DNA of 33,709 nucleotides. Origin: a virus. Every line of letters begins with the position of its first letter. Within the stretch, counting starts at the first letter, position 1. Shown here piece by piece: positions 8,241 through 31,126 of the stretch. The stretch covers positions 1 through 33,709 of IMG/VR virus record IMGVR_UViG_3300018080_000401. One strand, given 5' to 3'. Position numbers and translations under genes: made by a program. The notes below the pieces were generated by a model. It searched no databases. It was not told the DNA's origin and was given only the letters and a program-made list of their open reading frames with translations.

Positions 8241-8891
8241 TTATCCTTCGCTGGTTGTATTAAAATACGAACACACCCACTTGTAGTCCTCAAGGGTATT
8301 AATGCTTTTAATGCCTAATACCGGGCTTGGCGTCATTTTGTATGTAATCAGGTACTTTCTCATCCACGTAGTTACGTGCTCTCTCATGTCTCTTATGGCG
8401 AACACATTTGCCAGATGCAGAGCAAAGGATGAAAAACATTCGACGTCGGAACCCTCGCCATTCAACTGGCCCGTGCTTTCGTCGGTGTTGCAAACAATAT
8501 CGTAATTGCCCGCCTTGTATTCCCGCACAACCCTGTCTATTTCCTGCGGTTGCAACAACGGGCAGTCGGCCGTCAAACGAACAATGGCATCTGCCTTTTC
8601 CGCTCTCGCCGCTTCGTAGAATTCCCGCACAACGTCTCTTTCGTTCCATGAAGGCATGTAAGCCCTGATATTCCACCGTCCGCACATAGTGGCTATCTGC
8701 TTGTCGGGCGTGACTACCACGACGTCGTCAACCGTAGTAGCCAAACATGCCTTCCTTACGACCATTTCCAGCATACTTACGCCGGATTCGGGGGGTATCT
8801 GGGCCAAAACCTTGTTGGGAAACCTTTTACTGCCCAACCTTGCCTGTATTATCGCTAAGACTTTCATTTGGACATTATTTTTGGGCCTCAT
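8241..8891 (-). CDS. SpsF/NeuA-type sugar cytidylyltransferase
   Basis: A nucleotidyltransferase of the SpsF/CMP-nonulosonate synthetase type. The canonical N-terminus KVLAIIQARLGSKRFPNKVL binds CTP. VVVVTPD, IVRLTADCPLLQPQEID and GEGSDVECFSSFAL follow, then REHVTTWM. Known relatives activate nonulosonic acids as CMP-sugars. I chose ATG 8891 (MRPKNNVQMKV) because GAGG lies 9 bases upstream; Met at 8867, directly before KVLAI, matches the family start but lacks a ribosome site. The length of about 216 residues is close to a single-domain enzyme. It is the last gene of the sugar cassette and acts after the NeuB-like synthase at 21125-21961. Confidence 0.8.
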   Translation of the reverse strand: MRPKNNVQMKVLAIIQARLGSKRFPNKVLAQIPPESGVSMLEMVVRKACLATTVDDVVVVTPDKQIATMCGRWNIRAYMPSWNERDVVREFYEAARAEKADAIVRLTADCPLLQPQEIDRVVREYKAGNYDIVCNTDESTGQLNGEGSDVECFSSFALHLANVFAIRDMREHVTTWMRKYLITYKMTPSPVLGIKSINTLEDYKWVCSYFNTTSEG

Positions 8892-10541: not shown

Positions 10542-10554
10542 CTGCACTCCTTTG

Positions 10555-10804: not shown

Positions 10805-11269
10805 TCAAAACTCCTTTACATGAATAATTGTGTCAAATTCGCCGTCGGCGGGCGCTTCATACGCTGCCTTTTCCGCCTTGGCTATGCCATGCCAGTCAAC
10901 ATTGTCCCAATGCGGCTTCTTCAGTCTGTTGTTGACGTGCCACTCTACGTCTTTTTGCGGCATGATTACGGCAATAAATTTATTGGCCGGCAGTTTTTTC
11001 CATTTGCTTCTGCGGTCCGACGCCCGCGTGAGATTGCCGCAATCAATAATCACGTCGTATCCGGCGTCAAGCAAGTGCCGTGCGGTATCGAAACAGCTTT
11101 CGGTGATAATATCGTCCTGCTCGACGTGGTATTCATATTCGCCGTTAAGCATCTTGCGAAACGCATCAGGCGATACTATCTTTGTCTTGGGCTTATCTTT
11201 AACGAAGTTACGCGCCCATGTTGACTTGCCGCTGCCGATACAACCTATTGTCATGTAGACTATTCTCAT
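10805..11269 (-). CDS. P-loop polynucleotide kinase-like protein
   Basis: 154 residues with a Walker A motif GCIGSGKST (residues 9-17, Lys15). SPDAFRKML and DVIIDCGNLTRASDRRSKW follow, which fit the 5'-kinase half of T4 Pnkp-type (AAA_33) enzymes. They would transfer ATP gamma-phosphate to a 5'-OH end. The phosphatase domain found in T4 Pnkp is absent. An RNA ligase gene (15496-16149) lies in the same cassette, so the pair may repair RNA broken by host anticodon nucleases. The start overlaps the FemAB-like gene's stop. Adenylylsulphate- or zeta-toxin-type kinases are less likely alternatives. Confidence 0.7.
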   Translation of the reverse strand: MRIVYMTIGCIGSGKSTWARNFVKDKPKTKIVSPDAFRKMLNGEYEYHVEQDDIITESCFDTARHLLDAGYDVIIDCGNLTRASDRRSKWKKLPANKFIAVIMPQKDVEWHVNNRLKKPHWDNVDWHGIAKAEKAAYEAPADGEFDTIIHVKEF

Positions 11270-12096
11270 GTTTGCATCTCCAATATTAATCGCGTTACCG
11301 TCTTGCCGCCGAAACCCCTTTTGAAGGCGCTGATATTGACGTACTTGCTATCCGCTCTGGCCCCGTCGGACATTGTGTGCCCGGAATGAAAAGCTATCTC
11401 GCCGACCTCGAACGTCTTTGCCCCGCGTATTTGTGATCTTACAATTCCCTGCCAGAGAAGGGCGTGGGTATTTTGCTTTCCCGACCTTCCACCGGCATAA
11501 TACGCGGCATCCTTGCAGTATATTAACACCGCCGCATCGGGACCGTCCGTCAGACAAAAAGCTTCACTCCGGTCTATCATGCCCTGTTGAATCTTCCATG
11601 TTGGGTCGGGTCGTTCACGCCCGCCGTGCATTGAATGCGGCAGGACATAGTCTTCTATCTGCCCGTAGTCGATGTTTCCAGTCTTAGTGACCAATGACTT
11701 GTAACTCTTGCGAATGCCCGCGTGGAGTTCCCCCATAGACCTCTCTAAATCTATCACTTGGAAATAGACCGGCCTTGCCCTATAGCCGCGACGAAGAAGA
11801 AACTCGCTTACCACGGATACCTTGCCGTTGGCGAGAAAGTCCATATAATAAATGTCGCGGGAAATATCGTATAGGCGTTCGATGTGCAGCTTGAGGCTTT
11901 TGTCGTCGCCGACAGCCACCATAGGCCGCCAGAAGCCTGTTATCCGGCCGTCTTTAAGTCCGGCAACAACTTCGCAATCGTCGCCGCGATAAGACACGTC
12001 TTCATAAGGGCCGCTCATGGCTTGTGAATAGGCTATATCCAAGTCGTTGTATAGTGGTGTCAGTTGATTCAGCCTCAGTGTTAATTTATTCGCCAT
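11266..12096 (-). CDS. FemAB/GNAT-fold acyltransferase-like protein
   Basis: 276 residues starting at ATG 12096, with AGGAG upstream. The C-terminal half shows the FemAB/BioF2-type pattern: HALLWQGIVRSQIRGAKTFEVGE followed by KYVNISAFKRGFGG. RKSYKSLVTKT in the middle resembles the family's R-x-x-x-R/K-x-x motif. Known relatives add aminoacyl groups to peptidoglycan precursors, or acylate sugars and other surface molecules. Here it lies with sugar-nucleotide genes, so an acyl decoration of a sugar or cell-wall precursor is plausible. It overlaps its neighbours on both sides, consistent with one operon. Confidence 0.6.
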   Translation of the reverse strand: MANKLTLRLNQLTPLYNDLDIAYSQAMSGPYEDVSYRGDDCEVVAGLKDGRITGFWRPMVAVGDDKSLKLHIERLYDISRDIYYMDFLANGKVSVVSEFLLRRGYRARPVYFQVIDLERSMGELHAGIRKSYKSLVTKTGNIDYGQIEDYVLPHSMHGGRERPDPTWKIQQGMIDRSEAFCLTDGPDAAVLIYCKDAAYYAGGRSGKQNTHALLWQGIVRSQIRGAKTFEVGEIAFHSGHTMSDGARADSKYVNISAFKRGFGGKTVTRLILEMQT

Positions 12097-13190: not shown

Positions 13191-13715
13191 TTATGCGCTC
13201 CGCACTTCATACGCCTGGAATTCTTCTTTTTCGATATCAAAATACATAGTCATGGAAGTCTTGCCATTCCAATATTTGCCTTTGCGCAAATCCGATGACT
13301 TGCCGTGATAGTCACCAACAATCGTCTTCCAAAAGTGCTGGCCAGTTGTGTTTGCGTAATAACACTCTCCATATACCAGATCCAAGTTCAGGTAATTGAA
13401 CGCACGATCCAGAAGAAGGTAGACGGCTTGCTTGCCGCGACATTCGCCTCTTTTTGCCGGATCGAGTATTAAGGATATTTCCGCCTGGCGGCTTTCCCAC
13501 GCGATGTTCGTAAGGCCGCCCATGCCGATAAACACACCGTCCTCGTGTATCCCCCAATACCTGTGAGGACTATTGCGGTTACATATCACATCGTGATAGA
13601 ATTGCTCCTGCTGCTCTTTCGTCAGTGGATACGGCGTCCGGAGACTCACAAGGCACTCATTGCGCCAGATACGAGCCTGCTCGCAATCGTCTTTTGTCAG
13701 GACTTCAAGCTTCAT
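13191..13715 (-). CDS. GNAT acetyltransferase, PseH-like candidate
   Basis: 174 residues; the ATG overlaps the aminotransferase stop as ATGA, so the two are probably co-translated. The N-terminus (DCEQARIWRNECLVSLRTPYPLTKEQQEQFY) and the core (YWGIHEDGVFIGMGGLTNIAWESRQAEISLILDPAKRGE) match RimJ/PseH-type GNAT enzymes. RGECRGKQAVYLLLDRAF provides the acetyl-CoA loop region. GNATs next to aminotransferases in sugar loci acetylate the new amino group of the nucleotide sugar. That role fits the nonulosonate pathway proposed here. The substrate is inferred from the neighbourhood. Confidence 0.75.
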   Translation of the reverse strand: MKLEVLTKDDCEQARIWRNECLVSLRTPYPLTKEQQEQFYHDVICNRNSPHRYWGIHEDGVFIGMGGLTNIAWESRQAEISLILDPAKRGECRGKQAVYLLLDRAFNYLNLDLVYGECYYANTTGQHFWKTIVGDYHGKSSDLRKGKYWNGKTSMTMYFDIEKEEFQAYEVRSA

Positions 13716-15079
13716 TTCTTATTCTTACTTCCTTTTGGTCTACCTCTTTTGCGTTTGGGTGAGTCGGGGCGAATCTCCTGCGCGTTATCGAACGCGGCCT
13801 TCTGCTCGGCACCGCGCGGTTGTTCCGGCTCTTTGGCTGCTTTTGGTTTCTTTTCCGGAAGAACGATTGTTCTCAGTGTTTCCTGCGGCGCCGGGCCTTT
13901 GAGCATTTCCTGCGGCCTGTCCCAATACTTGTTCAGTGCGTACATGGCTTCCCGCACCGTCGCCGTCGTCCTCTCAACCGACGTCTGGTCGTGGGAGAAC
14001 GTTACGAATTGTGCGAAGCCGAAGAATATCCCGCGCTCTACACAATATTGCCAGAACGCGCCTTTGTGTTCGGCGGTCGGGAACTTGAAGAACGTCCTCT
14101 GTGGCTGGCCGATGCACTCGGTAGTATCGTGCCGGCTGAATGACGTCGCCGAGTTATTGAACGCCACCCTGAGCTTCTGGCCCATCATTTCAAGATGATG
14201 ATACACCGGCTCTTCCTTCAACACCTTGAGAGTGGCAAGGGCGGCGGAAATGCCGAGCAACTCGCCGCCGTAAGTCGATGACACGAAACAGTCCGCCTTC
14301 AACACGTCCATGATCTCTTTTTTGCCGCCGACGCAGGCCATTGGAACTCCGTTGGCCATCGCTTTGCCGAGACATGTAAGATCGGGCCGGACCTTAACGG
14401 TCTCCTGTGCGGTAATCTTCCTACTCCTGAATCCCGTGACGTTCTCGTCGAAAATCAAAACAACATCGTTGGCCGAACACAGCTTTCTCACTTGTTGGAG
14501 ATACTTCTTGCAGGTATCTTCGTCCCGATAGATGTAGGGTTCGAGCATGTACGCCGCCGGTTTTTTCTCGTCAACCAACCGCTTGAGACCGGCGAAATCA
14601 CCCCACTTAACAGAAGTAACGTCTTGGGTAACGGACCCCGCGTTCTTGGGAGTTGTGCAGTTGTACCATTCGTGCCAGCCGTGATAGCCGCACACTATCA
14701 CGGGCCAGCGTCCGGTGTAGTCGCGGGCTATGCGCACCGCCGCGCTACAAGCCTCGCTGCCGGTCTTGAGAAATCTCATGGCTTCCATCGAGGGTATGGT
14801 ATCGTGAATCAATTCGGCCAACTCGCCGACTTTAGGATGTTCGAGGGAAAACAACGTACCTTCTTCTGCCTGGCTCTTAATAGCCTCCACGACAGACGGG
14901 TAGGCATGGCCGAGAAGGTTCGCGCCGAGAGAACACGGCCAGTCTATGTATTCCTTTCCGTCGGCGTCCCACGCCTTACAGCCCTTGCCTTTGACGAAAA
15001 GGCGGGGATGGCTTATCGTATGAACGCACGCCCGCTTTGACAGGGTATTAACTTGTTCCGGTAATCTATTCATTGACAT
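13712..15079 (-). CDS. Class III PLP aminotransferase with C-terminal AT-hook
   Basis: Residues 1-390 form a glutamate-1-semialdehyde-aminomutase-like class III aminotransferase. They carry LKTGSEACSAAVRIARDYTG (104-123), IVCGYHGWHEW (128-138), FDENVTGF (210-217, Asp211 to the PLP nitrogen) and LGKAMANG with the PLP Lys239. Enzymes of this type occur in some surface-sugar loci, where they aminate keto-sugars. A Pro/Lys/Glu-rich linker then leads to KRKRGRPKGSKNKK (442-455), an AT-hook-like minor-groove DNA-binding motif that is not part of the family. Start at ATG 15079 behind AAGGAG. The stop overlaps the GNAT gene, so this enzyme may feed it an amino sugar. Confidence 0.75.
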   Translation of the reverse strand: MSMNRLPEQVNTLSKRACVHTISHPRLFVKGKGCKAWDADGKEYIDWPCSLGANLLGHAYPSVVEAIKSQAEEGTLFSLEHPKVGELAELIHDTIPSMEAMRFLKTGSEACSAAVRIARDYTGRWPVIVCGYHGWHEWYNCTTPKNAGSVTQDVTSVKWGDFAGLKRLVDEKKPAAYMLEPYIYRDEDTCKKYLQQVRKLCSANDVVLIFDENVTGFRSRKITAQETVKVRPDLTCLGKAMANGVPMACVGGKKEIMDVLKADCFVSSTYGGELLGISAALATLKVLKEEPVYHHLEMMGQKLRVAFNNSATSFSRHDTTECIGQPQRTFFKFPTAEHKGAFWQYCVERGIFFGFAQFVTFSHDQTSVERTTATVREAMYALNKYWDRPQEMLKGPAPQETLRTIVLPEKKPKAAKEPEQPRGAEQKAAFDNAQEIRPDSPKRKRGRPKGSKNKK

Positions 15080-15495: not shown

Positions 15496-16149
15496 TTAAT
15501 GTTTCTTCGTGCCAAAATCCTTATGCTTGATTTTGGTGATAATACGGTTGCCATTGCGCCCTTTTAACTCAACGGAAGGACGTATGACCAATCCCTCGGC
15601 AAGAAAGCTTGTGTGTCTTGACCACCGAGAGACAACACCTACATCCCTAACTATTGATATGCCCTCAAGCAATGTCCCGTGGCCACAAATGGGAACCGCG
15701 CCTATGCCCAATGCCATCGCAATTGCCTCAACATCGTCACGTCGCAGCCACCAACCATCGACAAGGACGTCAAACAGAACAAAATTAACACCATCGGGGT
15801 TGTAATTCCCCCCGCCCTTTTGAATTTTCGCCCCGTACCCTTCCCCGTAAAGACACAAAGAATCAGCCTTGGTGATTCCCTTATCCATTTTCTCAAGTGG
15901 AAAAAGCTCCTCAAGTTTAGCGAACAGGAAGGCCGGTATCTGTGCGTTATCAGTCCTGCCGGCAAACGACCGTTGTTTGCCTCGAACCCAATTAACACGG
16001 ATATTCATACCGTCAACCTTCTCTGTGAACAGCCAATCATTGTCCTTGAGATAGTTAAATTCGGGACAAGAAAAGTCCCCGTCGATGATTTTGCCATTGT
16101 TGGCCATATCTCGCTTGTATACCGTTTGAATTTTTGGGTATGCGTCCAT
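15496..16149 (-). CDS. RNA ligase (Rnl2-like)
   Basis: 217 residues with the nucleotidyltransferase motifs in order: EKVDGMNIRV (motif I, Lys44 takes AMP), FAGRTDNAQI, LYGEGYGAKIQKGG (III), VNFVLFDVLVDGWWL (IIIa), AEGLVIRPS (IV) and ITKIKHKDF (V). The size equals a bare catalytic domain, shorter than T4 Rnl2. ATP-dependent RNA ligases seal 3'-OH/5'-phosphate ends. Phages use them with polynucleotide kinase to repair tRNA cut by host defence nucleases, and a kinase gene lies at 10805-11269. Start at ATG 16149, preceded by AAAGGAG. Confidence 0.85.
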   Translation of the reverse strand: MDAYPKIQTVYKRDMANNGKIIDGDFSCPEFNYLKDNDWLFTEKVDGMNIRVNWVRGKQRSFAGRTDNAQIPAFLFAKLEELFPLEKMDKGITKADSLCLYGEGYGAKIQKGGGNYNPDGVNFVLFDVLVDGWWLRRDDVEAIAMALGIGAVPICGHGTLLEGISIVRDVGVVSRWSRHTSFLAEGLVIRPSVELKGRNGNRIITKIKHKDFGTKKH

Positions 16150-16483: not shown

Positions 16484-16696
16484 CTATTCGTACTCTTTCG
16501 TAATAATACAGAAAATCAAAAAACACGTTCCTATGGGCGGCAAGAATATTGCCGCCAGCAACAAACAGGACCAAAATGCGTCGAACGTACCCGACGAGAC
16601 ATAACCGTCTCTCTTCATGTGGCCCTTAGCCCTGAGATACCAAACCACAAGCAAGATCGCATTAACTGCCCAGAAAGCATAAATCACTTTTACCAT
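16484..16696 (-). CDS. Small two-helix membrane protein, 70 aa
   Basis: Hydrophobic segments at residues 3-20 (VIYAFWAVNAILLVVWYL) and 40-64 (AFWSCLLLAAIFLPPIGTCFLIFCII) are separated by a basic loop. The ATG overlaps the stop of the aldo/keto reductase gene. Unknown role. Confidence 0.6.
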   Translation of the reverse strand: MVKVIYAFWAVNAILLVVWYLRAKGHMKRDGYVSSGTFDAFWSCLLLAAIFLPPIGTCFLIFCIITKEYE

Positions 16697-17331
16697 TTTC
16701 TCGGATCCAATAATTGTTCGTCATGTTTTTCAAGTGGGTTCCATAGATGAATGAAATTGAGGCTTCTTTGGAGCTGATCGACGCTATCGACGCCGATGAT
16801 AATCTTGTCGATGTGCGGATTTGCGAGGCAAAATTTTACACATTCTTCCGGCGGTATGCCGTCGGCGATGATTTTGCCGCGAAGGAAGATGGAACGAACA
16901 TGGATTTCGCCCTTAAACCGCTCTATCACTTCGTCAAACCTTCTATCATACAACGAATAAGGTACTTGTATTACGTCGGGGTCGGCGTTCACGTTCAAGT
17001 CGCGTGGCTGATAACATGATATTCCCCAACGCCCCTCGTATGTTGGACCAAAAAACTCGCCGTCTTCGACATGATGCCTCATGATACAATATGGATGCGT
17101 CGCCTCTACCTTTTCCCTATCATCGTGCCACCGAATCTTCACTACAACATTGAAAAACGAATTGGCCCGCGTCCAATCCCATCCGTAAGCCGTCGCGCAA
17201 TCTAAGGTGTCGATGCCGTTGCACTGCGCATACCCAAGTATCTTGCCGATTTCCTTTTCGGAGACTTTGACGCCGTTGTATTCCCGGCCCCAATTCGCCG
17301 TTCCTATTGCTATACGGGAAAATAGGTTCAT
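16690..17331 (-). CDS. Short aldo/keto reductase
   Basis: The N-terminus IAIGTANWGREYNGVKVSEKEIGKILGYAQCNGIDTLDCATAYG is a clear aldo/keto reductase start. All four expected catalytic residues are visible: Asp44, Tyr49, Lys65 (VVVKIRW) and His86 (IMRHHVE). The C-terminal part retains FCLANPHIDKIIIGVDSVDQL, near the NADPH site. At 213 residues it is much shorter than the usual 280-330, with loops and strands removed from the middle. Such reductases occur in surface-sugar loci with NeuB and SpsF homologues, so reduction of a sugar intermediate is a reasonable guess. ATG 17331 has AAAGGA upstream. Confidence 0.75.
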   Translation of the reverse strand: MNLFSRIAIGTANWGREYNGVKVSEKEIGKILGYAQCNGIDTLDCATAYGWDWTRANSFFNVVVKIRWHDDREKVEATHPYCIMRHHVEDGEFFGPTYEGRWGISCYQPRDLNVNADPDVIQVPYSLYDRRFDEVIERFKGEIHVRSIFLRGKIIADGIPPEECVKFCLANPHIDKIIIGVDSVDQLQRSLNFIHLWNPLEKHDEQLLDPRKW

Positions 17332-17749: not shown

Positions 17750-18727
17750 GTTCCATCATCCCTTCGCAAATTCACTGCTCATATAATTTTCTTCTATCGT
17801 CTCTTCAAATTTGCACAAAAGATCAGCGCGATCGTCAGTTAACCCGACAATTAAGGGATCTACCGGCAAAATTTCTACCTCGGCCTCAGACCAGACGGCC
17901 TCGGCAATCAACACAACATCACGGTATTTGCGTTTAGCCCTATGCACCAACTGCTGAACCTCAACCGGTAAAATGCCCGTATACATTGACCTAATCTGTA
18001 TTGTGTTTACATGGCAACCCGCTGCACGGAAAAAGCCCTTTAAGCTTATATATTGATTATCCCTATCCATAGCCCGCAGTAAATGCTTCTCGATAAGCGG
18101 GTGCGTATCCACACACACCTCTCTATACACCGCCTGTTCCTCTATCAAAGAAACATCCATCCCATCAAGATCAATCTCTGTTGCTTGCTGATAATCGGGA
18201 ACGCAAAAAAGGCCGTCTTTTGGATAATAGTTATTATCCCCGGACACCTCAACAAGTAATATTTTCTTGTTGCACATATCCGCATCAATACGATATTTCC
18301 GCTGTATAATATACAGGGGCCTCTGAGCCTTTTTAGTGGCCATCCTAATGATAAACGGCTCCAAAGCATGTGCGCCCTTAAATGAATATACGCCAAACTC
18401 CGGCACAATGTATTGCTCTCCCTTACGACTCGTGGTTGTGTGTGTTTTTAGAAAGGACAAGTCTATTTTAGGAGGCCCATTTTTTCCTTTCCGTTGTTGC
18501 GAAAACACTTCATCGCAAGCCTCATCGGCTAACTGGCTTATCGTCCGGCCCTCTTCAAGCCGCCATAACAGCCCATCTGCATCTTGGTGTGTATACCTGT
18601 CGGATACTTGGTGATTTTCGGTTGATTTCATGTTCCATCATCCCTTCGTAAATTCGCTGCTCATATAATGTTCTTCTATCGTCTCTTCAAATTTGCACAA
18701 AAGATCAGCGCGATCGTCAGTTAACCC
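17744..18727. repeat. 102-base near-identical direct repeat at the ends of paralogues
   Basis: Positions 17744-17845 and 18626-18727 match at 99 of 102 bases. The unit covers the last roughly 30 codons of each paralogue, its stop, the intergenic ribosome site and the next ATG. Outside it the two genes are far more diverged, pointing to gene conversion or recent crossover. Confidence 0.85.
17756..18631 (-). CDS. Unknown tandem paralogue 2, 291 aa
   Basis: Paralogue of the 18638-19519 product. Shared landmarks, in order, are GLxWRxExG, GPPxIDLSFLK, VYxFxxAHxLxPF, HPLIxxHLLxAM, GILPVEVQQLVHxAKRxYxDVVLxxEAxW and DPLIxGLTDDRADLLCKFEETIE. The last 30 residues differ at only a few positions although the bodies have diverged widely. 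It is a soluble two-domain protein, with strands and a hydrophobic core in the N-terminal part. The C-terminal DPLIxGL motif resembles domains in other phage proteins of unknown role. The ATG lies behind AAGGGATG. Confidence 0.7.
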   Translation of the reverse strand: MKSTENHQVSDRYTHQDADGLLWRLEEGRTISQLADEACDEVFSQQRKGKNGPPKIDLSFLKTHTTTSRKGEQYIVPEFGVYSFKGAHALEPFIIRMATKKAQRPLYIIQRKYRIDADMCNKKILLVEVSGDNNYYPKDGLFCVPDYQQATEIDLDGMDVSLIEEQAVYREVCVDTHPLIEKHLLRAMDRDNQYISLKGFFRAAGCHVNTIQIRSMYTGILPVEVQQLVHRAKRKYRDVVLIAEAVWSEAEVEILPVDPLIVGLTDDRADLLCKFEETIEENYMSSEFAKG

Positions 18728-19519
18728 AATAATCAACGGGTCTACCGGACTGATGTCGGATACTTCAGGTTTTTCCCATGCAGCCTCACTAACCAAAACA
18801 ACATCCGTGTATTCGCGCTTGGCCTTGTGAACTAACTGCTGAACCTCGACAGGCAAGATTCCATTGTACACAGATTTAATTACTACGTTGGCGGTGCTAT
18901 AATGTCCGGGAAAACCAAACTCTAATAGCAATTTATATTGATTGCCATAATTCATAGCATTTAACAAGTGAGCATCAATCAATGGATGCACTCCCACATT
19001 AGTTGTTTTTACTTGCCCGTTGGCGGGCACAAAGGCCGCATTGTTTTGTTTTGCCAGATCGAATACATGTGAACTTTTATAATTCAGAACAGCTAACATT
19101 TCTTTGCCCGAACTGTTTGTTGAGTAATACGCATCTTCATGTGGTAGCGTGATAAGTAACATTTTATTTCCACACTCATCGGCCGGTACGCAATATTTTC
19201 TATTTACAATATAACATGGGCAAGCTAATCGAGACATCTTCATCTTGACTGTGCATGGGTTAAGATGATGAGCGCTTCTAAACGCATACACGGCAAAAAA
19301 GGGCACAAAATACTTTTCGCTCTTGTATGTTATGGAAGTGCGTTTTTTGAGAAATGACAGGTCTATTGCTGGTGGCCCCCCCCTTTTGCCCCGATCTTTT
19401 TGTTTTTCCGCAAGGAAAACTTCCCTTACCACCTCGTCGGCCAACGTACTTACCGGCTTGCCATCTTCAAATCGCCATGATAAACCATTGGTATGTCTGA
19501 GTGTGCATTTGCGAGCCAT
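18638..19519 (-). CDS. Unknown tandem paralogue 1, 293 aa
   Basis: First gene behind the promoter at 19651-19678 and its structured leader. ATG 19519 has AAAGGAG 10 bases upstream, one of the strongest ribosome sites here. The protein shares its full layout with the following gene (17756-18631), so this is a tandem duplication. It contains several unpaired cysteines in the middle (CPCYIVNRKYCVPADECG) that are not conserved in the copy. No catalytic motif is recognised. Its own promoter suggests a separate timing or dosage from the sugar genes around it. Confidence 0.7.
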   Translation of the reverse strand: MARKCTLRHTNGLSWRFEDGKPVSTLADEVVREVFLAEKQKDRGKRGGPPAIDLSFLKKRTSITYKSEKYFVPFFAVYAFRSAHHLNPCTVKMKMSRLACPCYIVNRKYCVPADECGNKMLLITLPHEDAYYSTNSSGKEMLAVLNYKSSHVFDLAKQNNAAFVPANGQVKTTNVGVHPLIDAHLLNAMNYGNQYKLLLEFGFPGHYSTANVVIKSVYNGILPVEVQQLVHKAKREYTDVVLVSEAAWEKPEVSDISPVDPLIIGLTDDRADLLCKFEETIEEHYMSSEFTKG

Positions 19520-19650: not shown

Positions 19651-19678
19651 ATATTACAACATTATTGATGTATGTCAA
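19651..19678 (-). promoter_or_regulatory. Sigma70-type promoter inside the end of the dehydratase gene
   Basis: TTGACA (19678-19673), a 16-base AT-rich spacer and TAATAT (19656-19651) lie on the minus strand. The -35 box overlaps the last codons of the PseB-like gene. The predicted start is near 19644, leaving a leader of about 125 bases before the first paralogue. Confidence 0.65.
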
Positions 19679-20552
19679 TAGGAATTTCGGAAATTTTGAG
19701 TATTTTTTTTACTTCTTTTGCGGTCATCCACCAGTCATTCTTATCTGATGTGTAGCCGTCGCACAGACCTTCGGCAATCTTCTCGCCCTCCGTCACGCCG
19801 ATTATTTTGAAGGTGCAATCCGACTCTATCGCCTTGGCAAGATCGGTAATCTTCATTGACGGCAGCTTCGGTATGTAAATCGGCGGCGTGCCGGCTTCTG
19901 CGGTCAGAATCGTAAGGACGGACTGGGCCGCCTGTTGTATCGTTATCCAGAACCGGCTCATCTCCGGATGCGTTATCGGGAACTCCTTCACACCCTCGGA
20001 TTTTAATTTGAGAAATAATTCCGCCACCGATCCTCTGGAATTCAACACGTTGCCATATCGTATCATTCTGAATTCCGTGCGATTGTACGAATTGGCCGCG
20101 AGAAACATCTTCTCTGCGGTGAGCTTGGTCGCTCCGTAGCAGTTTTTGGGATTCCACGCCTTGTCGGTGCTTACAAGAACGGCCCTTTTAACATCGTTAT
20201 CAAGGCACGCCCGAACGACGTTCGCACTGCCGTTTACGTTGGTCTTGACAGCCTCCATCGGCGAGTACTCGCAGGTCTCTATCCTTTTCATGGCGGCGGC
20301 GTGAACTACATAATCGACGCCCCGCAACGACCATTTCAGTCTGTCGTAATCGCGAATATCGCCTATGTGAAATCTCAGCCACGGAAGGTCTTTGTGCCCG
20401 GCCGCCATTTGAGACTGCTTGTACTCGCACCTCGAATAGACAATGACTTTTTTGGGCGAGAAGGAATAACTTATGTGCTTTACCAACTCCCTGCCGAGCG
20501 TTCCGGTCCCCCCCGTTATCAACACCGTAGCTTTATCGAGCGTGCTGTTCAT
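19662..20552 (-). CDS. PseB-like NAD(P)-dependent sugar 4,6-dehydratase
   Basis: 296-residue extended SDR of the PseB/FlaA1 type. Motifs are ITGGTGTLGR (12-21, dinucleotide binding), RFHIGDIRD (60-68), HAAAMKRIETCEYSP (84-98), the active-site STDKA (128-132), YGATK (139-143) and RYGNVLNSRGSV (165-176). Known PseB enzymes convert UDP-GlcNAc to a 4-keto-6-deoxy sugar with C5 inversion, the first step to pseudaminic acid. FlaA1/CapD relatives make related sugars. The ATG overlaps the preceding stop as TAATG, and GGAG lies 9 bases upstream. It probably supplies the keto-sugar for the class III aminotransferase. Confidence 0.85.
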   Translation of the reverse strand: MNSTLDKATVLITGGTGTLGRELVKHISYSFSPKKVIVYSRCEYKQSQMAAGHKDLPWLRFHIGDIRDYDRLKWSLRGVDYVVHAAAMKRIETCEYSPMEAVKTNVNGSANVVRACLDNDVKRAVLVSTDKAWNPKNCYGATKLTAEKMFLAANSYNRTEFRMIRYGNVLNSRGSVAELFLKLKSEGVKEFPITHPEMSRFWITIQQAAQSVLTILTAEAGTPPIYIPKLPSMKITDLAKAIESDCTFKIIGVTEGEKIAEGLCDGYTSDKNDWWMTAKEVKKILKISEIPIDIHQ

Positions 20553-20746
20553 TATCTTTTGCTCCCAATCTGTGTTCTTAATGAATGGTTGTCGGCTAAG
20601 AGTTTTTTTATCTCGGCGGCGTCTAATTCGCGCCGTCGGTTAAATTCGGCTTGCGCCGCCTCTGCCTGCTGGCAGTCTATGAGATGTTGCCTGTTTGCGG
20701 TATCTTTCAATATGGCGCTAAACGTTTTGTTTCTCATGAGTTTCAT
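20552..20746 (-). CDS. Small coiled-coil protein, 64 aa
   Basis: ATG 20746 has GGAG 7 bases upstream, and the gene overlaps both neighbours. The protein is helical and charged (CQQAEAAQAEFNRRRELDAAEIKKLLADNHSL), a probable coiled coil. It has no Cys pair, signal or membrane segment. Unknown function. Confidence 0.5.
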   Translation of the reverse strand: MKLMRNKTFSAILKDTANRQHLIDCQQAEAAQAEFNRRRELDAAEIKKLLADNHSLRTQIGSKR

Positions 20747-21131
20747 CGGCTTTCTCCATTAGCCGTCGGCGGATTTCCGCAACGAGCTTTTCTATATTGT
20801 CCTCGCCGACCCACCCAACCATCATCTTTTGGAATATCGGGGACTGCACCCATTTCTCGCCATCGAACGTCAAGTCGGCGTACTGTATCGTAGAAACGTA
20901 AAATTTCCGGTGCTTGCAATCGTATGCCTTGCATTCGGGCGGCATTTGGCCCCTGGGTAACCTGCACCCATTATCGCCGAGAAAACCCTTTTCGTCCGTC
21001 CACAGGTGTTGGTTCTCCTTATTCAGGTATCCCCTGCGAGCAGTCCGGCAGTTTGCACAACATATACCCGTGAACTTGCCGACGCCCGGCACTTCCGGGC
21101 AATTCATATCACATGTGCAATCTTCTACCAT
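20718..21131 (-). CDS. YkgJ-like cysteine-cluster protein
   Basis: 137 residues from ATG 21131, overlapping the NeuB-like gene's stop, with GAGG upstream. Cysteines occur as DCTCDMNC, GICCANC, NGC, ECKAYDC. The order CC..C...GFLGDNGCRLPRGQMPPECKAYDCK matches the YkgJ-type zinc/iron-chelating domain common in bacteria and phages. The C-terminal half is helical (NIEKLVAEIRRRLMEKADE). A metal-binding accessory role, perhaps for a neighbouring enzyme, is possible; its biochemical function is not established. Confidence 0.6.
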   Translation of the reverse strand: MVEDCTCDMNCPEVPGVGKFTGICCANCRTARRGYLNKENQHLWTDEKGFLGDNGCRLPRGQMPPECKAYDCKHRKFYVSTIQYADLTFDGEKWVQSPIFQKMMVGWVGEDNIEKLVAEIRRRLMEKADETHEKQNV

Positions 21132-21961
21132 ACTTTCCTCAGCATTTGGCCTTCAATCATATCCCTGTGATAGCTTTTTTTTGACGTATAACATGGTGTT
21201 CCTATCATTGCCACGGCCTGCCTGCAAGCAGCGACCATCGCTGCAAAAATATCGGGAAATACTGCAAACGCCGCGTCCAGACCTTCGTCGTCGAGCTTGA
21301 TATGCTTTTCAATGACTGTAGCCGCCATAGCTACTGCCGACACCGGCGCGGTCAATCCGGTACTGTGATCGGAGAGACCTACCGGCAGGCCGAACCTTTC
21401 TCTCATTGCGGCAATCATACATAAATTCATATCGGCGTCATCGGATGGATACGCACTTACGCAGTGAAGCAAGGTCAACTTCTTGCGTGAGAATATTTTC
21501 ACGGCGCGTTCTACGTCTTCCTCACAGGCGCCGCCGGTGCTCAATATGACCTCAGTAGCGCGCGAATCGGCCACGGCTTCAAGGAGTTCGGTATAAGCGC
21601 TTTCAAACGATGCTATTTTAACGGTTCGTATCCCCCAATCGTTCAAAAGCGCGGCGGTATCGGGATGGTAGACCGAAAGAATAAACTCCATACCGCAAGA
21701 TTCCGTTGCCCTTTTTAAATCGGGTATCCAGTCGTAGCACAAAGCGCTCTGCTGATAAAGGCTATACAACGTCAAGCCTTCCCACGGCCCGGACTCTATG
21801 ACGAACGGGGATTCGTCTTTATCAAGGGTCATCTCGTAGGGCCGGAACGCGCTGAATTTCACGGCATCGGCCCCGGCCTTGTAGGATGCGTGTATTAAGG
21901 CCATAGACCTTGCGTAAGACTGCCTGTGACTTGCCCCGGTTTCGGCAATCAGCTTAACCAT
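21125..21961 (-). CDS. NeuB/PseI-like nonulosonate synthase lacking the SAF domain
   Basis: A TIM-barrel NeuB family protein: IAETGASH (5-12), AGADAVKFSAF (29-39), MEFILSVYHP (91-100), VKIASFE (114-120), VILSTGG (138-144), LLHCVSAYPS (164-173), VGLSDHSTG (194-202) and VIEKHIKLD (216-224). Relatives condense phosphoenolpyruvate with an amino sugar to form a sialic-, legionaminic- or pseudaminic-like acid. The protein stops at residue 278, where families of about 340 residues continue into an antifreeze-like SAF domain that helps bind substrate in the dimer. ATG 21961 lies inside the connector gene's last codons (8-base overlap), so it may be made with virion proteins. Confidence 0.8.
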   Translation of the reverse strand: MVKLIAETGASHRQSYARSMALIHASYKAGADAVKFSAFRPYEMTLDKDESPFVIESGPWEGLTLYSLYQQSALCYDWIPDLKRATESCGMEFILSVYHPDTAALLNDWGIRTVKIASFESAYTELLEAVADSRATEVILSTGGACEEDVERAVKIFSRKKLTLLHCVSAYPSDDADMNLCMIAAMRERFGLPVGLSDHSTGLTAPVSAVAMAATVIEKHIKLDDEGLDAAFAVFPDIFAAMVAACRQAVAMIGTPCYTSKKSYHRDMIEGQMLRKVW

Positions 21962-23033
21962 ACAAGTTGGAATCCCATCCAATCATTATTTCGTGACGCC
22001 GCCCAAACTTCTCAAGCCAGCCAACGTCTTCACCCGCCCTTGGGTCGGGATTGGACCACGCCCGCTTTGCCGATCTCACCTCTCCGGCCAAAGCGGGATT
22101 GCCACTGGCAATGACTTGCCACGCTTTCCATACCCCATACAAAATCAAGCCCTCGTCAGACATGCTGATATCGCTGGCCCCGGTAACGTCGGTCGTGAAT
22201 TCTTTCGGGTAAAAATCGCCGTCGAACCTCATGTCTTTGTCCCAATACCCGCTCGAACAATAAGGCCACGTATCAATTGTAGTGTTGTTGCGCATAGTCC
22301 ACTGGCTTGGCCTGCCGAAGCTTTCGCTCGAATGGGTAGGATCCGGATGTTCGCTGTCGAATTCGTCTCGCGGTTTGAAAGTAAGCTGCCGCGACTGATT
22401 GCCGTCGAGATACCAAACATCAGTGACTCTGCAAACGCCACGGTCGGTTGTGCTATCGCCGTAAGTCAAGTCAGTGATCGTATATTGGTACGTTCCCGTG
22501 GTATCGAAAGTAGACCTGTTGGAAAAGTGAAGGCATGACAGACCCGGAACCGTCTGGACGATAACCCTCTGCGCTTCGTTCAGAACCCTCGTACACCACG
22601 TCATATCGACTATCTCATTGCCGTGAGTGTCGGCGTCGGGACGGCCTATGCGAAGCTGTATCTCGTCTATCATATCCTTGCACGTAAGCGCCGTGCCCGG
22701 TGAACCCGGAGACGGAGCCGCCGTTAGAGATGAGCCGTTCCACGTATATGAAGTCGGCCCGCCGAAAGGAACATCGTCGGTCGATGGCGCAGCGCCTACG
22801 CGCTCATATACCTGAATGTCATACGTATCATTGGCTATGGCCGATGGAAAATCGCCGAGATAATAACCCATTCCGGAATCGGTAAGGGCTATATCGTAAT
22901 CGGTAATACTGGCCGCCGCGCAAGCCTCGAAAGCCTGCGAGCTCGTATTCCAGATATAACCCGTAGTCGGCTGCCTGATAGTAGCGTACAGGTTGTATCC
23001 AGCGGCGAATCCAGTTCTGATTTTGTTAGACAT
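21954..23033 (-). CDS. Head-tail connector (adaptor) with N-terminal beta domain
   Basis: 359 residues. Residues 1-110 form a beta domain (IRTGFAAGYNLYATIRQPTTGYIW ... YYLGDFPSAIANDTYDIQVYERVG) seen in other phage structural proteins. After a Pro/Gly/Ser linker comes an adaptor part: CKDMIDEIQLRIGRP, RVLNEAQRVIVQTVPGLSCL and FGRPSQWTMRN. This resembles P22 gp4/gp6-type connectors that bridge portal and tail. ATG 23033 has GGGG close upstream. A strong hairpin lies just before the gene. The downstream gene is the NeuB-like synthase, not a tail gene. Confidence 0.7.
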   Translation of the reverse strand: MSNKIRTGFAAGYNLYATIRQPTTGYIWNTSSQAFEACAAASITDYDIALTDSGMGYYLGDFPSAIANDTYDIQVYERVGAAPSTDDVPFGGPTSYTWNGSSLTAAPSPGSPGTALTCKDMIDEIQLRIGRPDADTHGNEIVDMTWCTRVLNEAQRVIVQTVPGLSCLHFSNRSTFDTTGTYQYTITDLTYGDSTTDRGVCRVTDVWYLDGNQSRQLTFKPRDEFDSEHPDPTHSSESFGRPSQWTMRNNTTIDTWPYCSSGYWDKDMRFDGDFYPKEFTTDVTGASDISMSDEGLILYGVWKAWQVIASGNPALAGEVRSAKRAWSNPDPRAGEDVGWLEKFGRRHEIMIGWDSNLYG

Positions 23034-24264: not shown

Positions 24265-25299
24265 TTAAGAGACGTTCGACAGCCACAGAGACGATTTCGG
24301 TTTCCAGCAGAGAAAATTCCCCGCCCACATTATTCGAGCAAGCCAGTAATCATGGCCGCCCGAACGGTCGCCCTGCCACACCCACGGCGTAAGCTTTTCC
24401 TTGCGCTGTTCGTGAATGCGGAACTCCCAGTACTTCAGATTGAGAATGAACACCCAAGTACGGGTAGTGGAGCTGCGGTGCAGATACGGAACGCTTACGA
24501 CTTCGTGATTGTTGAAGTACATACTGGTAATACCCTGGCTCTGCTTCTTGCCCTCTTTGTACATGGAGTGCGCCTCCATTTCCGTGGCGAGCTTGTCCCA
24601 GAGCTGAGGTCCCATTACAATCATCAGGTCTTCGGGCGATTCCATACAATCGGCAACCGAAGTCTCGTTGATCCACTTCTGCAAACGGCCCTTACTCAAC
24701 GTAGTGGCGGTTCCCTGAGTGCTTGAGCTGACAGACTCATTAAGACCGCTGGGATCGGCGCCCTGCCATTCGTCGTTGGTATTGCCCGACCATGACCGGG
24801 TAAGACCTCCGTAAGTGACGTCGTGGTCCAGAGCCGAAACAAGACTCTGCCACTTCTTCGTGTTGCCGTCGGCCACACCCGTAGTGCTGCCGTCGTTGAA
24901 CATCGCCTTTTCCCACCACTTCTTGAGGTCTCTCATGCCCTTACCGAGCAGGTGCTTGGCGAGATTAACCAACTGGACCGTGCTGTCGCCGTGAATGTTT
25001 TGGAGTTCGGCATCCACGTTGTAACGCAGCGGCAGTTGGCCTTTTCGCCACAAGAACTGCGGTTTCTCAAGGGTTTCCTGTGCCTCATCGGTCAGCGCAT
25101 CGTTCGTGTCGTAGACCTGGACCTGATCCTCGATGGTGTCCATGTCAATAAGCCGTTCGATGTACTTGCCGCCCGTATAATTTATTTGGTTCCTGCGCTT
25201 GATTTCCTCAATGATCGGCGTGCGCATATACGCCTGATCGAGGGGTTCGCCTTTCACGAACAACTCTCTCGTTGCCTTATCTAAATCCGTATTCGGCAT
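24265..25299 (-). CDS. Major capsid protein, HK97-like
   Basis: 344 residues. Architecture fits an HK97-fold major capsid protein. The N-terminal arm helix (LDKATRELFVKG) is followed by an E-loop-like strand region (QINYTGGKYIERLID ... LRYNVDAELQNIHG). The helical spine is VQLVNLAKHLLGKGMRDLKKWWEKAMFNDG. The A-domain includes SPEDLMIVMGPQLWDKLATEMEA and ends DYWLARIMWAGNFLCWKPKSSLW. It directly follows the scaffold gene, as in many phages. The sequence is not close enough for me to name a specific phage group. Confidence 0.8.
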   Translation of the reverse strand: MPNTDLDKATRELFVKGEPLDQAYMRTPIIEEIKRRNQINYTGGKYIERLIDMDTIEDQVQVYDTNDALTDEAQETLEKPQFLWRKGQLPLRYNVDAELQNIHGDSTVQLVNLAKHLLGKGMRDLKKWWEKAMFNDGSTTGVADGNTKKWQSLVSALDHDVTYGGLTRSWSGNTNDEWQGADPSGLNESVSSSTQGTATTLSKGRLQKWINETSVADCMESPEDLMIVMGPQLWDKLATEMEAHSMYKEGKKQSQGITSMYFNNHEVVSVPYLHRSSTTRTWVFILNLKYWEFRIHEQRKEKLTPWVWQGDRSGGHDYWLARIMWAGNFLCWKPKSSLWLSNVS

Positions 25300-26353: not shown

Positions 26354-26557
26354 TCAGTTTGTCAGCTCCCCAGCCCATCCGAGGGCTTTTTTCGCCGCCT
26401 GCTGGCGGTCCCTTATGACCTTGAGCGCCGCCTTCAACAGCTTGTCGTCCTTCTTGATCTCAAAGCTGCGAGTAAGCGCGTCAGCCGCGTTCTCGGCGTC
26501 CCATTGGTCCACGCCCATTACTTTAGGCGGACTCTTTTCTGCTATCGCTGTTGCCAT
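26354..26557 (-). CDS. Small protein between portal and scaffold, 67 aa
   Basis: ATG 26557 has GGAG 9 bases upstream and overlaps the portal gene end. Helical and Lys/Ala-rich (AENAADALTRSFEIKKDDKLLKAALKVIRDRQQAAKKALGWAG). This position commonly holds small head-assembly or unknown conserved proteins. Function unassigned. Confidence 0.6.
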   Translation of the reverse strand: MATAIAEKSPPKVMGVDQWDAENAADALTRSFEIKKDDKLLKAALKVIRDRQQAAKKALGWAGELTN

Positions 26558-28577
26558 TACTTGCATCTCCAACGGCCTGCATCGACATAATTCTTTGCCG
26601 GGCCTTCTCTATGAGCATTTGTAATGCCTGCTCGGGCGCGAGTTGCCCCGCCTCGACGGCCTCGATTAACTGCTCGAAGCCTATCCAATCCTGCCATTTT
26701 TCGTGTTTTTCGAGTATCTTCTGCCACGCCGTTATCTGCAAAACCCTCAAGTACTCCGGCAGCAGGGGATTCGGTCGCGGGTCCTGTAGTATCGTATAAG
26801 CCTTCTCGTATCGAAGAATGCGCTTTTCCTCGTCCCACGGCATACCCTCGGTCGGCTCAATATTGACGTCAAACTTCGCTTCTTTGGAACGGTCGGTGAT
26901 TTGTACGGCGCCAATCATCATATCGTCGCCGACAACCCTCACTACACGGCCCGCTTCGTAATAATACTGATCCATTTCGGCAACCAACCGTATCAGGTCC
27001 CTTGCCCATTCCTCCTGGAAAAGGTTTTGCAGCTTAATCCTGTCATTGGCCGACATTGCAAGGTGCTGGGCCTCGGTGGCCGTCGTATCCCCGGTAGTCT
27101 TCTTGCCTAAGGCAATATCCTGCATACCCTGAATATTCTTGAACTCCTGCACCATCATTTGATAGATCATCATGTGCGCGGCGGAGGGAGCCTTCGGTTC
27201 GATTACCTTAAACCGGCTCAGCCCGCCCCGAACAAGCTTAATGATCGCCCCGGCGCCTTTGAGTATCTCGTACTTCTTTTTCGCATTTCTGGGGTCTACG
27301 AGCAATGCGTTCTCTTCGACGGCTATTTTCGGATCGCCGAACTCTTTGGCATTGTTAAAGAGATGGCTTACCGCTACGTTGATTTTGTCCTGCGTGTCCC
27401 GGTACAGGCTTATGGCGTCGCTGCCCTGCCACATAAAGGGCAAGAGGTAATGAGGGCATACGACAAACGGCCATCGGCTGTGCGGGTATATTTGCGTATC
27501 GGGGTCGGGGTTGAGAATTTCGTCCTCGTTGCGAATAATATACTGGCCGTTAGGATAATCGGGTTCCCGCCATTCCGTGACGTTGACGGGCCAGTTTTCG
27601 CTTGTTACCGGCAAGCCGTTGCGATCCATATAGCCGCCGGTTACGGCGTCCTGGATAAGCTGGCCGGATTCCATCAATACGGCGGGGTCGGCCGGCGACT
27701 CCTCTTGCTTGTTGCTCTCTTTGTAATTCTTCAAATACTGCTCGCTGATCCGGCAATAACGCCTGACGTCCGTACTATTGCCCTGCTGCGTACTCTCGGA
27801 AACTACAAGAGACAACAGCGTACTGCTGAGCTTGTCGGCGGAATGGCTGTCAACGTCGCCCGTGCCTTTCGATGGGTAAGTGCCCTGATGCGAGGTCTGG
27901 CCGTGGATGGTATCGCCGTGGCTTATGTGCCTAATCATATCGGCGTAACCTACCGATTGCTCTTTCAATACCTTCTTTTTCTTCGGCCACAACGATTGGG
28001 CATACTCTAACTCCAAATATCTGACCGTGCCGCAATCGCCTTCATTGATGTATTCCTTGTCCGATGCCCAAAAAAACGCGGGATGCCAAAGCCTGTGCTT
28101 GACGTCGCCCAGCCATTGCCTTTGCTCGGAACTCCACGTTATCTTCCGATCCCAATAAATCTTGGAAATCCAGTAGCCGTACAGTTTGCCGCACAACAGG
28201 CATTTGATGTTCTCCCTCCTCATGCCCCCCTGCTTTAACCCCGTATCCCATTGCCATTGCAAAAACCCCTGCAATGCCTCGGCAATATCCGTATCGCCGG
28301 GTTCGATGGGCGATGCGACGAATTTGAACCTACGGCTCAATTTGGCCAGTTCGGCTTGAATCGACGGCCATAAATAATTAAGCACGACCCATTCCCAATT
28401 CTTGTGGCGCTTGTAACCTTTAAGCTGCTGGCTGAGGAAATATGATATCGCCTCGGACCACAACGCGGCCCACGAATTGGTTACGGCCATGCCCGCCTGC
28501 TCAACGGCCTTGCAACGGTCGAGCAGGCTCATTTCCGCCAAATCACTACTAACTGGTTGTCCGGCTATTTCAGCCAA
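26523..28577 (-). CDS. Portal protein
   Basis: About 684 residues. The N-terminal region (KNWEWVVLNYLWPSIQAELAKLSRRFKFVASPIEPGDTDIAEALQGFLQWQWDTGL) is typical of podovirus-size portals. The stem-like helices EAQHLAMSANDRIKLQNLFQEEWARDLIRLVAEMDQYYYEAGRVVRVVG follow. The C-terminus carries a helical barrel-like region. It forms the ring through which DNA passes at the head vertex. The start is uncertain: the frame opens with TTG 28604, but TTG 28577 sits 6 bases after a run of seven G. An internal ATG follows 15 codons later. Length is near that of the P22 type. Confidence 0.8.
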   Translation of the reverse strand: MAEIAGQPVSSDLAEMSLLDRCKAVEQAGMAVTNSWAALWSEAISYFLSQQLKGYKRHKNWEWVVLNYLWPSIQAELAKLSRRFKFVASPIEPGDTDIAEALQGFLQWQWDTGLKQGGMRRENIKCLLCGKLYGYWISKIYWDRKITWSSEQRQWLGDVKHRLWHPAFFWASDKEYINEGDCGTVRYLELEYAQSLWPKKKKVLKEQSVGYADMIRHISHGDTIHGQTSHQGTYPSKGTGDVDSHSADKLSSTLLSLVVSESTQQGNSTDVRRYCRISEQYLKNYKESNKQEESPADPAVLMESGQLIQDAVTGGYMDRNGLPVTSENWPVNVTEWREPDYPNGQYIIRNEDEILNPDPDTQIYPHSRWPFVVCPHYLLPFMWQGSDAISLYRDTQDKINVAVSHLFNNAKEFGDPKIAVEENALLVDPRNAKKKYEILKGAGAIIKLVRGGLSRFKVIEPKAPSAAHMMIYQMMVQEFKNIQGMQDIALGKKTTGDTTATEAQHLAMSANDRIKLQNLFQEEWARDLIRLVAEMDQYYYEAGRVVRVVGDDMMIGAVQITDRSKEAKFDVNIEPTEGMPWDEEKRILRYEKAYTILQDPRPNPLLPEYLRVLQITAWQKILEKHEKWQDWIGFEQLIEAVEAGQLAPEQALQMLIEKARQRIMSMQAVGDASNGNSDSRKESA

Positions 28578-28659
28578 TTGCTTCCCCCCCAGGAAACAAA
28601 ACAAGTGACTTATTTATTTATACACATCAGACCCTAATTAAGAAAATCGCGTCGTTTCA

Positions 28660-29183: not shown

Positions 29184-29405
29184 TTACCCCTTATTAAATA
29201 ACGGCTCGAAATTGCCGCCCGTAGTTGTTTGCCCTAAATTTTGTTCGTATTCCACGTCATACGGTATTTCGCCGTGTTTTACCCGGTCCATCAACCTTAC
29301 GCCGTCCCTGTGCGCGGCCCGGTGCATCAAATATCCGGTCAATAAACCAAACCAAAACGACAACACAACAACCAATGCCGCAATCGCTATGATGTAATCG
29401 CTCAT
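29184..29405 (-). CDS. Single-pass membrane protein, 73 aa
   Basis: Start chosen at ATG 29405, overlapping the terminase stop as ATGA, with GGAGG 10 bases upstream. One hydrophobic helix (YIIAIAALVVVLSFWFGLLTGYLM) and a soluble C-terminal tail of about 45 residues. Could be a holin-like or anchor protein; there is no further support. Confidence 0.6.
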   Translation of the reverse strand: MSDYIIAIAALVVVLSFWFGLLTGYLMHRAAHRDGVRLMDRVKHGEIPYDVEYEQNLGQTTTGGNFEPLFNKG

Positions 29406-31126
29406 ACCGTCGTCTCCTCCCCCCAATCGTCGTCATCGCCCGGTTCCCACGGGTCTACGGCCCCGGAATAAGAAAGCTCAATATCGGGATCGCGATACCT
29501 GTCAAGATACGACGGATCGTCCGCATTGCCGGTTGTCGCCGGCAAAATGACCGGCCTCGGCGACCGTGGGCAATATATATCACCTATCATCGCCAAAAAC
29601 AGACCGAATAACAAATCGTCGTGCTTGCTCGGCCTGTGTATAGGTTTACCCATTTTATCATAAATGAACGTCCGCATCTCATTGACTATCACCTCAAATT
29701 GGATCAATATCGACTGCGTCCGCAAATAGGGTATGGTCTCGTGGACAAGCATGTGCCTTGTGGCCGTGGTTGTCCGGAAGCCTAAATTGTCGGTATCCTC
29801 CGGGTCGAAGGTTTCATCCTTGCCCCGCCGGTTGAAAATGCGATAGTATCCGGCATCGCGCAAAACCTGTAATACCATCATGCCCTGCGGGACCTCCGGG
29901 ACTACCCACGGACTCCCATAATGCTTAGCCGCACCAAGTACCTGTAAGCCCAAGTCCTTTTGTTCCATCCGCCCATGGAATATCGCCTTAATCCTCCTCA
30001 ACGACGGATGGCGGCTCAATACTACGACTCCGTCGTAATCCCGCTCGCTTTTGAGGTCCTTATCATCGCTTAACCTGTGCTCCCGCGTGTCCGCACCAAT
30101 AACGTGCTCCTCACCGCGTGGATCGTCCAGAACGGCCCATCCGTACCGTGAACCGCCCTGATTCTCCTCGAACGTGCCCGTGTGCGGATCGAATAAACCA
30201 TATCGAATATCGCTACGTATGTGCTTGGCCTGGAACTCGATGGTCTGTGCGTCAAATACCGGCGCTCCTGACGTTTGGAACGCCTCCAAATCCGTCGCCG
30301 GATACTCCTGCCGGAATACGTCGATGCGACCGTTTAACTCCTGAATTTTGAGCCGACGCCAATAAAGCTGGGCATCGGTAAGCGAGTGCAATTGGGCCTC
30401 TTGCCTCTCCTCCGGCGTGGCTTCGAAGCCGTCGGGCGGATCAACGGAATATTCGTTGAATTCGTACCACGGGAAAAAAACCGGCCTGAATCCGCGAAAA
30501 TCGCCTGAGCCAACCCGCTCCTTAGCCTCCATGTACGTATCGTAAAACGCGCCACCCATACCATTGGCCGTAGACTCCAAAATGATATACGTACCGGGAT
30601 CCTCCGGAACCATCTGATATAAGCCCGCCAATTGAGTGGCCGCATCGGACCAAAAAGCAACCTCGCTGCAATGCAAAAACCGGGCCTGGAACGACCGCCC
30701 AACTCCGACCTTGCCGGCGGTCTGGGCGTGAAAGGCCGATCTGTGCGGGTCGGAAAATATGATGGCCTTGCGATTGGTATTGTCGGTCGGTAATGGCTCG
30801 GGATGAGACGTGTGGTAGCGCTTGGCCATACCGAATATGACGTCGGTAGAATCGGCATCGACCGAAACCGCCATTGCATTAGTATTGGGCTGATGGTAAA
30901 CGTCGTGGAACGCCTCGGCCTCCGTCCACGTGGACCAACCAACCTGCCTCGGCTTCAGCAGGACAATCCGAACCGGCAAATTACGAGCTCGCTGCTGCTG
31001 CATCTCCGCATGGAGCAATAGCTGGCCGTTGTTCGGCGCCAATAAGCGAAAATGACCGCGCTTGTCGATGATATGCAGCTTAGCGGATATCCACGCGAGT
31101 CGGTTGTAGTCGGGTTCGATTATCAT
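29402..31126 (-). CDS. terL: Terminase large subunit
   Basis: 574 residues. ATPase: Walker A KPRQVGWST (58-66), Walker B with catalytic Glu155 (RFLHCSEVAFW) and coupling motif ESTANG (184-189). Nuclease: acidic residues Asp346 (IGADT), Asp365 and Asp503/504 (HDDLLFGLFLAMIGD), as in RNase H-like terminase nucleases. The enzyme packages DNA through the portal and cuts it. Start ATG 31126 overlaps the previous stop as ATGA. Identification is firm. The ATPase and nuclease parts are of normal order, with no intein or split. Confidence 0.93.
   Translation of the reverse strand: MIIEPDYNRLAWISAKLHIIDKRGHFRLLAPNNGQLLLHAEMQQQRARNLPVRIVLLKPRQVGWSTWTEAEAFHDVYHQPNTNAMAVSVDADSTDVIFGMAKRYHTSHPEPLPTDNTNRKAIIFSDPHRSAFHAQTAGKVGVGRSFQARFLHCSEVAFWSDAATQLAGLYQMVPEDPGTYIILESTANGMGGAFYDTYMEAKERVGSGDFRGFRPVFFPWYEFNEYSVDPPDGFEATPEERQEAQLHSLTDAQLYWRRLKIQELNGRIDVFRQEYPATDLEAFQTSGAPVFDAQTIEFQAKHIRSDIRYGLFDPHTGTFEENQGGSRYGWAVLDDPRGEEHVIGADTREHRLSDDKDLKSERDYDGVVVLSRHPSLRRIKAIFHGRMEQKDLGLQVLGAAKHYGSPWVVPEVPQGMMVLQVLRDAGYYRIFNRRGKDETFDPEDTDNLGFRTTTATRHMLVHETIPYLRTQSILIQFEVIVNEMRTFIYDKMGKPIHRPSKHDDLLFGLFLAMIGDIYCPRSPRPVILPATTGNADDPSYLDRYRDPDIELSYSGAVDPWEPGDDDDWGEETTV

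Follow-up and report, generated by a model that had tools for sequence, protein, structure and literature searches.

The window analysed here is an entire 33.7-kb contig (33,709 nt; G000:C32) from an assembly that is 92% complete. Its minus strand encodes tailed-phage proteins, with genes for the large terminase (29402–31126), the portal (26523–28604) and the major capsid protein (24265–25299; phrog_9953, major head protein, E = 1e-18). A search for a direct terminal repeat found none. When the capsid protein was searched against 298 genomes of the same class, the matches were limited to two, the genome of the contig itself and another with 31% identity; the contig could therefore be a binning stray, and the host assignment is uncertain. 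Contig C9 of the same assembly (L060) carries a separate NulO-type cluster with a full-length NeuB and, judged by eye, dehydratase, DegT-like aminotransferase, cytidylyltransferase and formyltransferase-like genes.

Between the head and tail genes, also on the minus strand, lies a cassette of sugar genes. It is bordered upstream by a head-tail connector-like gene (21954–23033), so named in the initial annotation, which has neither a Pfam nor a PHROG match and has a homologue at the same place in related phages. The next gene (21125–21961) has an ATG start and a TAG stop and encodes a PseI-type synthase of the NeuB family, 278 amino acids long, that lacks the C-terminal SAF (antifreeze-like) domain; an in-frame TTG lies 21 nt upstream of the ATG and would extend the product to 285 residues if used. 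As originally noted, the ATG falls inside the last codons of the connector gene, with an overlap of 8 nt (ATGGTTAA). At the other end, an open reading frame for a small Cys-rich protein (20718–21131, minus strand) begins 7 nt before the end of the synthase gene.

Pfam assigned the synthase a NeuB domain (PF03102, E = 1e-59, 202 bits against a cut-off of 22.1) that covers profile positions 1–238 of 241, and found no SAF domain in it, in agreement with the initial annotation that the protein, with intact barrel motifs, stops where SAF would begin. The same annotation had seen no frameshifted remnant, and a six-frame search of the window with a SAF profile built from the tails of 149 homologues was likewise negative (best E = 1.9). 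A separate SAF gene that could supply the missing part was found neither in the window nor in the records of eight SAF-less phage loci, which may be fragments; in the assembly as a whole, SAF domains occur just twice, in the host NeuB (C9) and in a FlgA-like protein (C68). Sequencing error or a frameshift can be ruled out as the cause of the short gene, because the same form recurs in about seven other phages and no frame encodes SAF. The synthase had no match in PHROGs.

The product had been described as a NeuB-like synthase. The family assignment stands, and profile, tree and fold now place the protein with the PseI type instead of generic NeuB. Its top NCBIfam model is TIGR03586 (PseI), with a score of 227.5 bits that is under the cut-off of 340.25 and a match that ends at position 268 of 327 because SAF is missing. 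In the tree the synthase falls in a clade with the Campylobacter jejuni PseI of known structure (PDB 8h2c; 98% SH-aLRT), within a viral sub-clade supported at 92/96. The AlphaFold2 (AF2) model has a confident barrel (mean pLDDT 95.4), for which the same PseI is the top PDB fold match (E = 6e-22, TM 0.87). Thus, the C. jejuni enzyme is the closest characterized protein by sequence, tree and fold and shares the barrel and the metal and PEP residues, whereas it has a C-terminal SAF domain with a substrate-binding arginine where the phage protein has a short conserved tail, and a glutamine (Q55) where the phage protein has serine. KDO8P and DAHP synthases are likewise PEP-condensing TIM barrels and operate without a SAF domain, but their likeness to the phage synthase is a distant one of fold only (E ∼ 1e-7 to 1e-8) and their acceptors are phosphorylated.

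In the alignment the synthase retains E7, K35, K115, S118, E120, S141, Y171, S197, H199, E218, H220 and D229, and has equivalents of all the PEP- and metal-binding residues of Neisseria meningitidis NeuB (E25, K53, K129, S213, H215, E234, H236 and D247). The barrel motifs are thus intact, as had been claimed, with a single exception among the residues checked: Gln55 (N. meningitidis numbering), near-invariant (kept in 139 of 142 NeuB proteins), is replaced by Ser37 (codon at 21851–21853), and the same change is found in the nearest relative, L233. The column of Arg314, the RP-motif arginine contributed by SAF, is a gap in the phage protein. In known NeuB enzymes SAF acts on the partner subunit, and in Caulobacter crescentus NeuB, which is a pseudaminic acid synthase, replacement of the equivalent arginine (R322A) abolishes activity in vivo (PMC7591256). 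This supports, for the PseI type, the earlier suggestion that the missing arginine matters: loss of SAF could therefore abolish the activity of the phage synthase, and a working SAF-less PseI needs a substitute.

Beyond the Cys-rich gene, the minus-strand cassette encodes a PseB-like UDP-GlcNAc 4,6-dehydratase (19662–20552; PF02719, E = 7e-79; TIGR03589, 332.7 bits, cut-off 407.75), a weakly matched aldo/keto-reductase-like protein kept in most relatives (16690–17331; PF00248, E = 9e-5, below cut-off), a class III (GSA-type) aminotransferase that is a candidate PseC substitute (13712–15079; PF00202, E = 6e-45; PRK06209, 239 bits) and a PseH-like GNAT acetyltransferase (13191–13715; PF13302; top NCBIfam model TIGR03585, PseH, at 33.6 bits, below cut-off). 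These are followed by a FemAB/GNAT-like putative acyl or aminoacyl transferase that is conserved in the cassette (11266–12096; TIGR04421, weak at E = 3e-4), a BFO_1060-type surface-carbohydrate glycosyltransferase-like protein that is a candidate NulO transferase (9171–10547; NF046086, E = 2e-16, and TIGR04396, E = 2e-13, both below cut-off) and a CTP_transf_3 cytidylyltransferase of PseF/KdsB-like type (8241–8882; PF02348, E = 6e-24, with NCBIfam KdsB/PseF-type matches). A tail-fibre-like gene (7321–8130, minus strand; PF21882, gp53-like C-terminal domain, E = 1e-7) forms the downstream border. By profile matches, most of the NCBIfam ones (PseI, PseB, PseH, glycosyltransferase) being under the curated cut-offs, the cassette corresponds to PseB, PseH, PseI and PseF plus a glycosyltransferase. 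The canonical CMP-pseudaminic acid pathway is incomplete, in that a DegT-type PseC is absent, its place being taken by the unrelated class III aminotransferase, and no PseG hydrolase was recognized among the window ORFs scanned. The gene pseI has already been listed, by gene name, as a marine phage gene (PMC6359870), so that phage-encoded pseI/NulO genes are known at that level; the literature searched yielded no account of SAF loss in them or of a cassette that sits between the connector and the fibre genes.

Two tandem paralogues within the cassette (17756–18631 and 18638–19519, minus strand) are 48% identical to each other, have no Pfam match and gave no tblastn match in the syntenic relatives examined. 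An RNA ligase (15496–16149; PF09414) and a P-loop kinase-like protein (10805–11269; PF13671), both on the minus strand of the same phage, are a possible RNA-repair pair. PADLOC gave no match for eight other proteins of the window.

Sibling phages were located through the capsid protein, which is about 55% identical in L064. The truncated synthase, whose occurrence in other phages the initial annotation had proposed as a check, is present in about seven syntenic ones (L225/L064, L226/L235, L233, L234, L264, L238 and L241), which encode SAF-less PseI-type proteins 41–56% identical to that of the window (56% in L233); the SAF-less form has thus been kept over long divergence. As far as the contigs reach, these loci share the order head genes, connector, SAF-less PseI, PseB, aminotransferase, PseH-like protein, glycosyltransferase, cytidylyltransferase and tail fibre. 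Every syntenic relative with a complete synthase gene is SAF-less and tail-bearing; the L223/L240 contig stops inside the gene. Some cassettes carry additional genes: those for a formyltransferase-like protein and a PIG-L deacetylase in L264 (11866–12378 and 15762–16328) and, judged by eye and with no Pfam match, an amidotransferase-like gene in L234 (13554–14609). Such extras suggest variation of the N-acyl groups of the sugar.

From the overlap with the connector gene it had been proposed that a sugar enzyme is tied to virion translation, a claim that did not hold up. Overlaps occur in 20 of the 42 neighbouring gene pairs of the window, and roughly half of the relatives have a Cys-rich gene that separates connector and synthase. 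Connector and synthase share 8 nt in the window and in L233 and L234, and 14 nt in L226/L235; a Cys-rich ORF intervenes in L264, L225, L238 and L240, where it overlaps the start of the synthase gene, and in L241 such an ORF lies directly 5' of the synthase, again overlapping its start. The small Cys-rich gene is found upstream of the synthase in some relatives instead of downstream as in the window. Special translational coupling to the connector is rejected as a feature of this locus; the overlap is ordinary gene packing, and conservation concerns the sugar cassette as a whole, which sits between the head and the tail genes. To judge from its location in the structural operon, it is probably expressed late.

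Truncation as such is not unusual, since SAF-less NeuB proteins are widespread among both bacteria and viruses. NeuB genes with short open frames were picked in a survey that covered 294 genomes of the phylum; the 13 short bacterial proteins that were checked end at 265–306 residues and have no tail of SAF length. Pfam, run on nine of them, found NeuB present and SAF absent in all nine. The Leptospira borgpetersenii structure 6ncs is a SAF-less NeuB-like protein of 290 residues, NeuB domains without SAF are known from Fusobacterium in FN1686-type fusions (PMC4045943), and about half of the sampled IMG/VR NeuB proteins lack SAF. All these are likewise barrels without SAF and of similar length, but they lie on other branches of the tree, and most SAF-less NeuB proteins fall into a single clade whose members end in KLR, often with a full-length NeuB encoded beside them. 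Membership of the window protein in this large clade was rejected: it falls in a separate clade, is of PseI type and, unlike the KLR group, has another tail, ending in MLRKVW with a GxMLR motif. The pairing of a full-length NeuB with a SAF-less paralogue on one contig is found in many phages, among them 11 IMG/VR loci (L081, L093, L099, L101, L113, L118, L119, L120, L121, L127 and L131) in which the paralogue mostly ends in KLR, and also in the bacterial loci L049, L051 and L055.

Within the PseI-type tree, SAF is absent in 16 of 39 viral rows, the window included, versus none of 74 cellular rows (Fisher P = 3e-9, a value that ignores the relatedness of the rows). The best 80 cellular loci yielded 81 proteins with SAF-length tails, and the lone complete protein that is short has a full-length paralogue next to it. 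In the sample examined, SAF loss in PseI-type enzymes is thus seen only in viruses. There appear to have been about three losses on the tree, three changes being the minimum: a single clade for all PseI-type SAF-less forms was rejected (p-AU 0.0146), whereas one common origin for the 12 tail-bearing forms was not (p-AU 0.07). SAF-less NeuB is thus known, but virus-only SAF loss in the PseI type together with a shared tail and cassette was not found in the literature searched, which held nothing specific on phage NulO or SAF-less synthases.

Where SAF would be, the window synthase carries a conserved C-terminal tail (residues ∼258–278, YTSKKSYHRDMIEGQMLRKVW; 21125–21190, minus strand) recognized by motif, alignment and AF2 model. 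The motif R-x-x-[IVM]-x-G-x-[WM]-[LVMI]-R is common to all ten SAF-less phage proteins aligned, that of the window included. As a regular expression, with the window itself excluded, it matches 11 of 72 SAF-less versus none of 153 SAF-bearing homologues. (The L226 synthase was aligned from 9541, 3 nt past its ATG at 9538, which does not affect the conclusions.) R275 is invariant in the alignment with these ten proteins, and its column has an arginine of the linker or of the first strand when SAF-bearing relatives are compared. The AF2 model of the window protein forms a β-hairpin at 264–277 (strands 264–269 and 272–277, pLDDT ∼75–81); in that of a second tail-bearing lineage, L068, the tail has no hairpin and no strands (pLDDT 52–66). 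Since related phages share the short form, complete with a conserved tail of its own, it represents a stable variant among phages rather than a broken gene, and the tail may take over the role of SAF or replace its arginine.

We consider it probable that the gene encodes a functional PseI-like synthase of a phage NulO cassette that has lost SAF, with the tail as its likely substitute. The enzyme would condense PEP with a 6-deoxy-diamino-hexose at the usual Mn/PEP site of the barrel; the phage lineage has lost the SAF domain, and the tail with its invariant R275 probably closes the active site and holds the substrate in its stead. The opposite conclusion, that the protein is a degenerate, non-catalytic remnant or a regulatory pseudo-enzyme, could draw on the essential role of the lost arginine in a characterized relative (PMC7591256), but is made very unlikely by the intact catalytic residues and by conservation of the form in about seven diverged phages with a complete cassette. 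It is just as improbable that the phage synthase forms a mixed dimer with a NeuB-family subunit of the host and borrows its SAF. SAF does work on the partner subunit in known NeuB (PMC7591256), and a host NeuB with SAF is encoded on C9 of the same assembly; however, that NeuB is of another type and only 32% identical, the host assignment is itself uncertain given the capsid matches, and the conservation of the tail in phages of many metagenomes fits a self-contained enzyme.

An alternative with somewhat better standing, though still unlikely in our judgement, is that the barrel was kept while the reaction or acceptor changed, to another PEP condensation or sugar for which the SAF arginine is unneeded. 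The SAF-independent KDO8P and DAHP synthases of related fold are among the PDB matches, Q55 is replaced by serine in both the window and L233, and a non-standard route is suggested by genes for a class III aminotransferase and an aldo/keto reductase instead of PseC and PseG. Against this, all the remaining family-invariant PseI/NeuB barrel residues for PEP, metal and substrate are retained, and PseB- and PseH-like genes stand in the same cassette. If the synthase is indeed a working PseI-like enzyme, the cytidylyltransferase of the cassette would activate its product and the BFO_1060-like glycosyltransferase would move the sugar to an acceptor on the virion or host surface, most likely late in infection. 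The cassette most likely serves to make a pseudaminic-acid-like sugar with which the virion or the host surface is glycosylated. A wider generalization can be put forward only tentatively: that more than one phage lineage has evolved a self-sufficient PseI in which the RxxΨxGx[WM]ΨR tail stands in for SAF and supplies the substrate-binding arginine, and that the conserved cassette in the virion operon adds a pseudaminic-acid-like sugar to the virion or host surface.

The SAF domain has been regarded as required for NeuB/PseI activity, and the series of SAF-less phage proteins with a conserved tail makes both its role and its replacement directly testable. These synthases would represent small single-domain enzymes for NulO synthesis, and the conserved cassette, placed as it is between the head and the tail genes, leads to a further testable idea, namely that these phages decorate their virions, or the surface of the host while infecting it, with a sialic-acid-like sugar.
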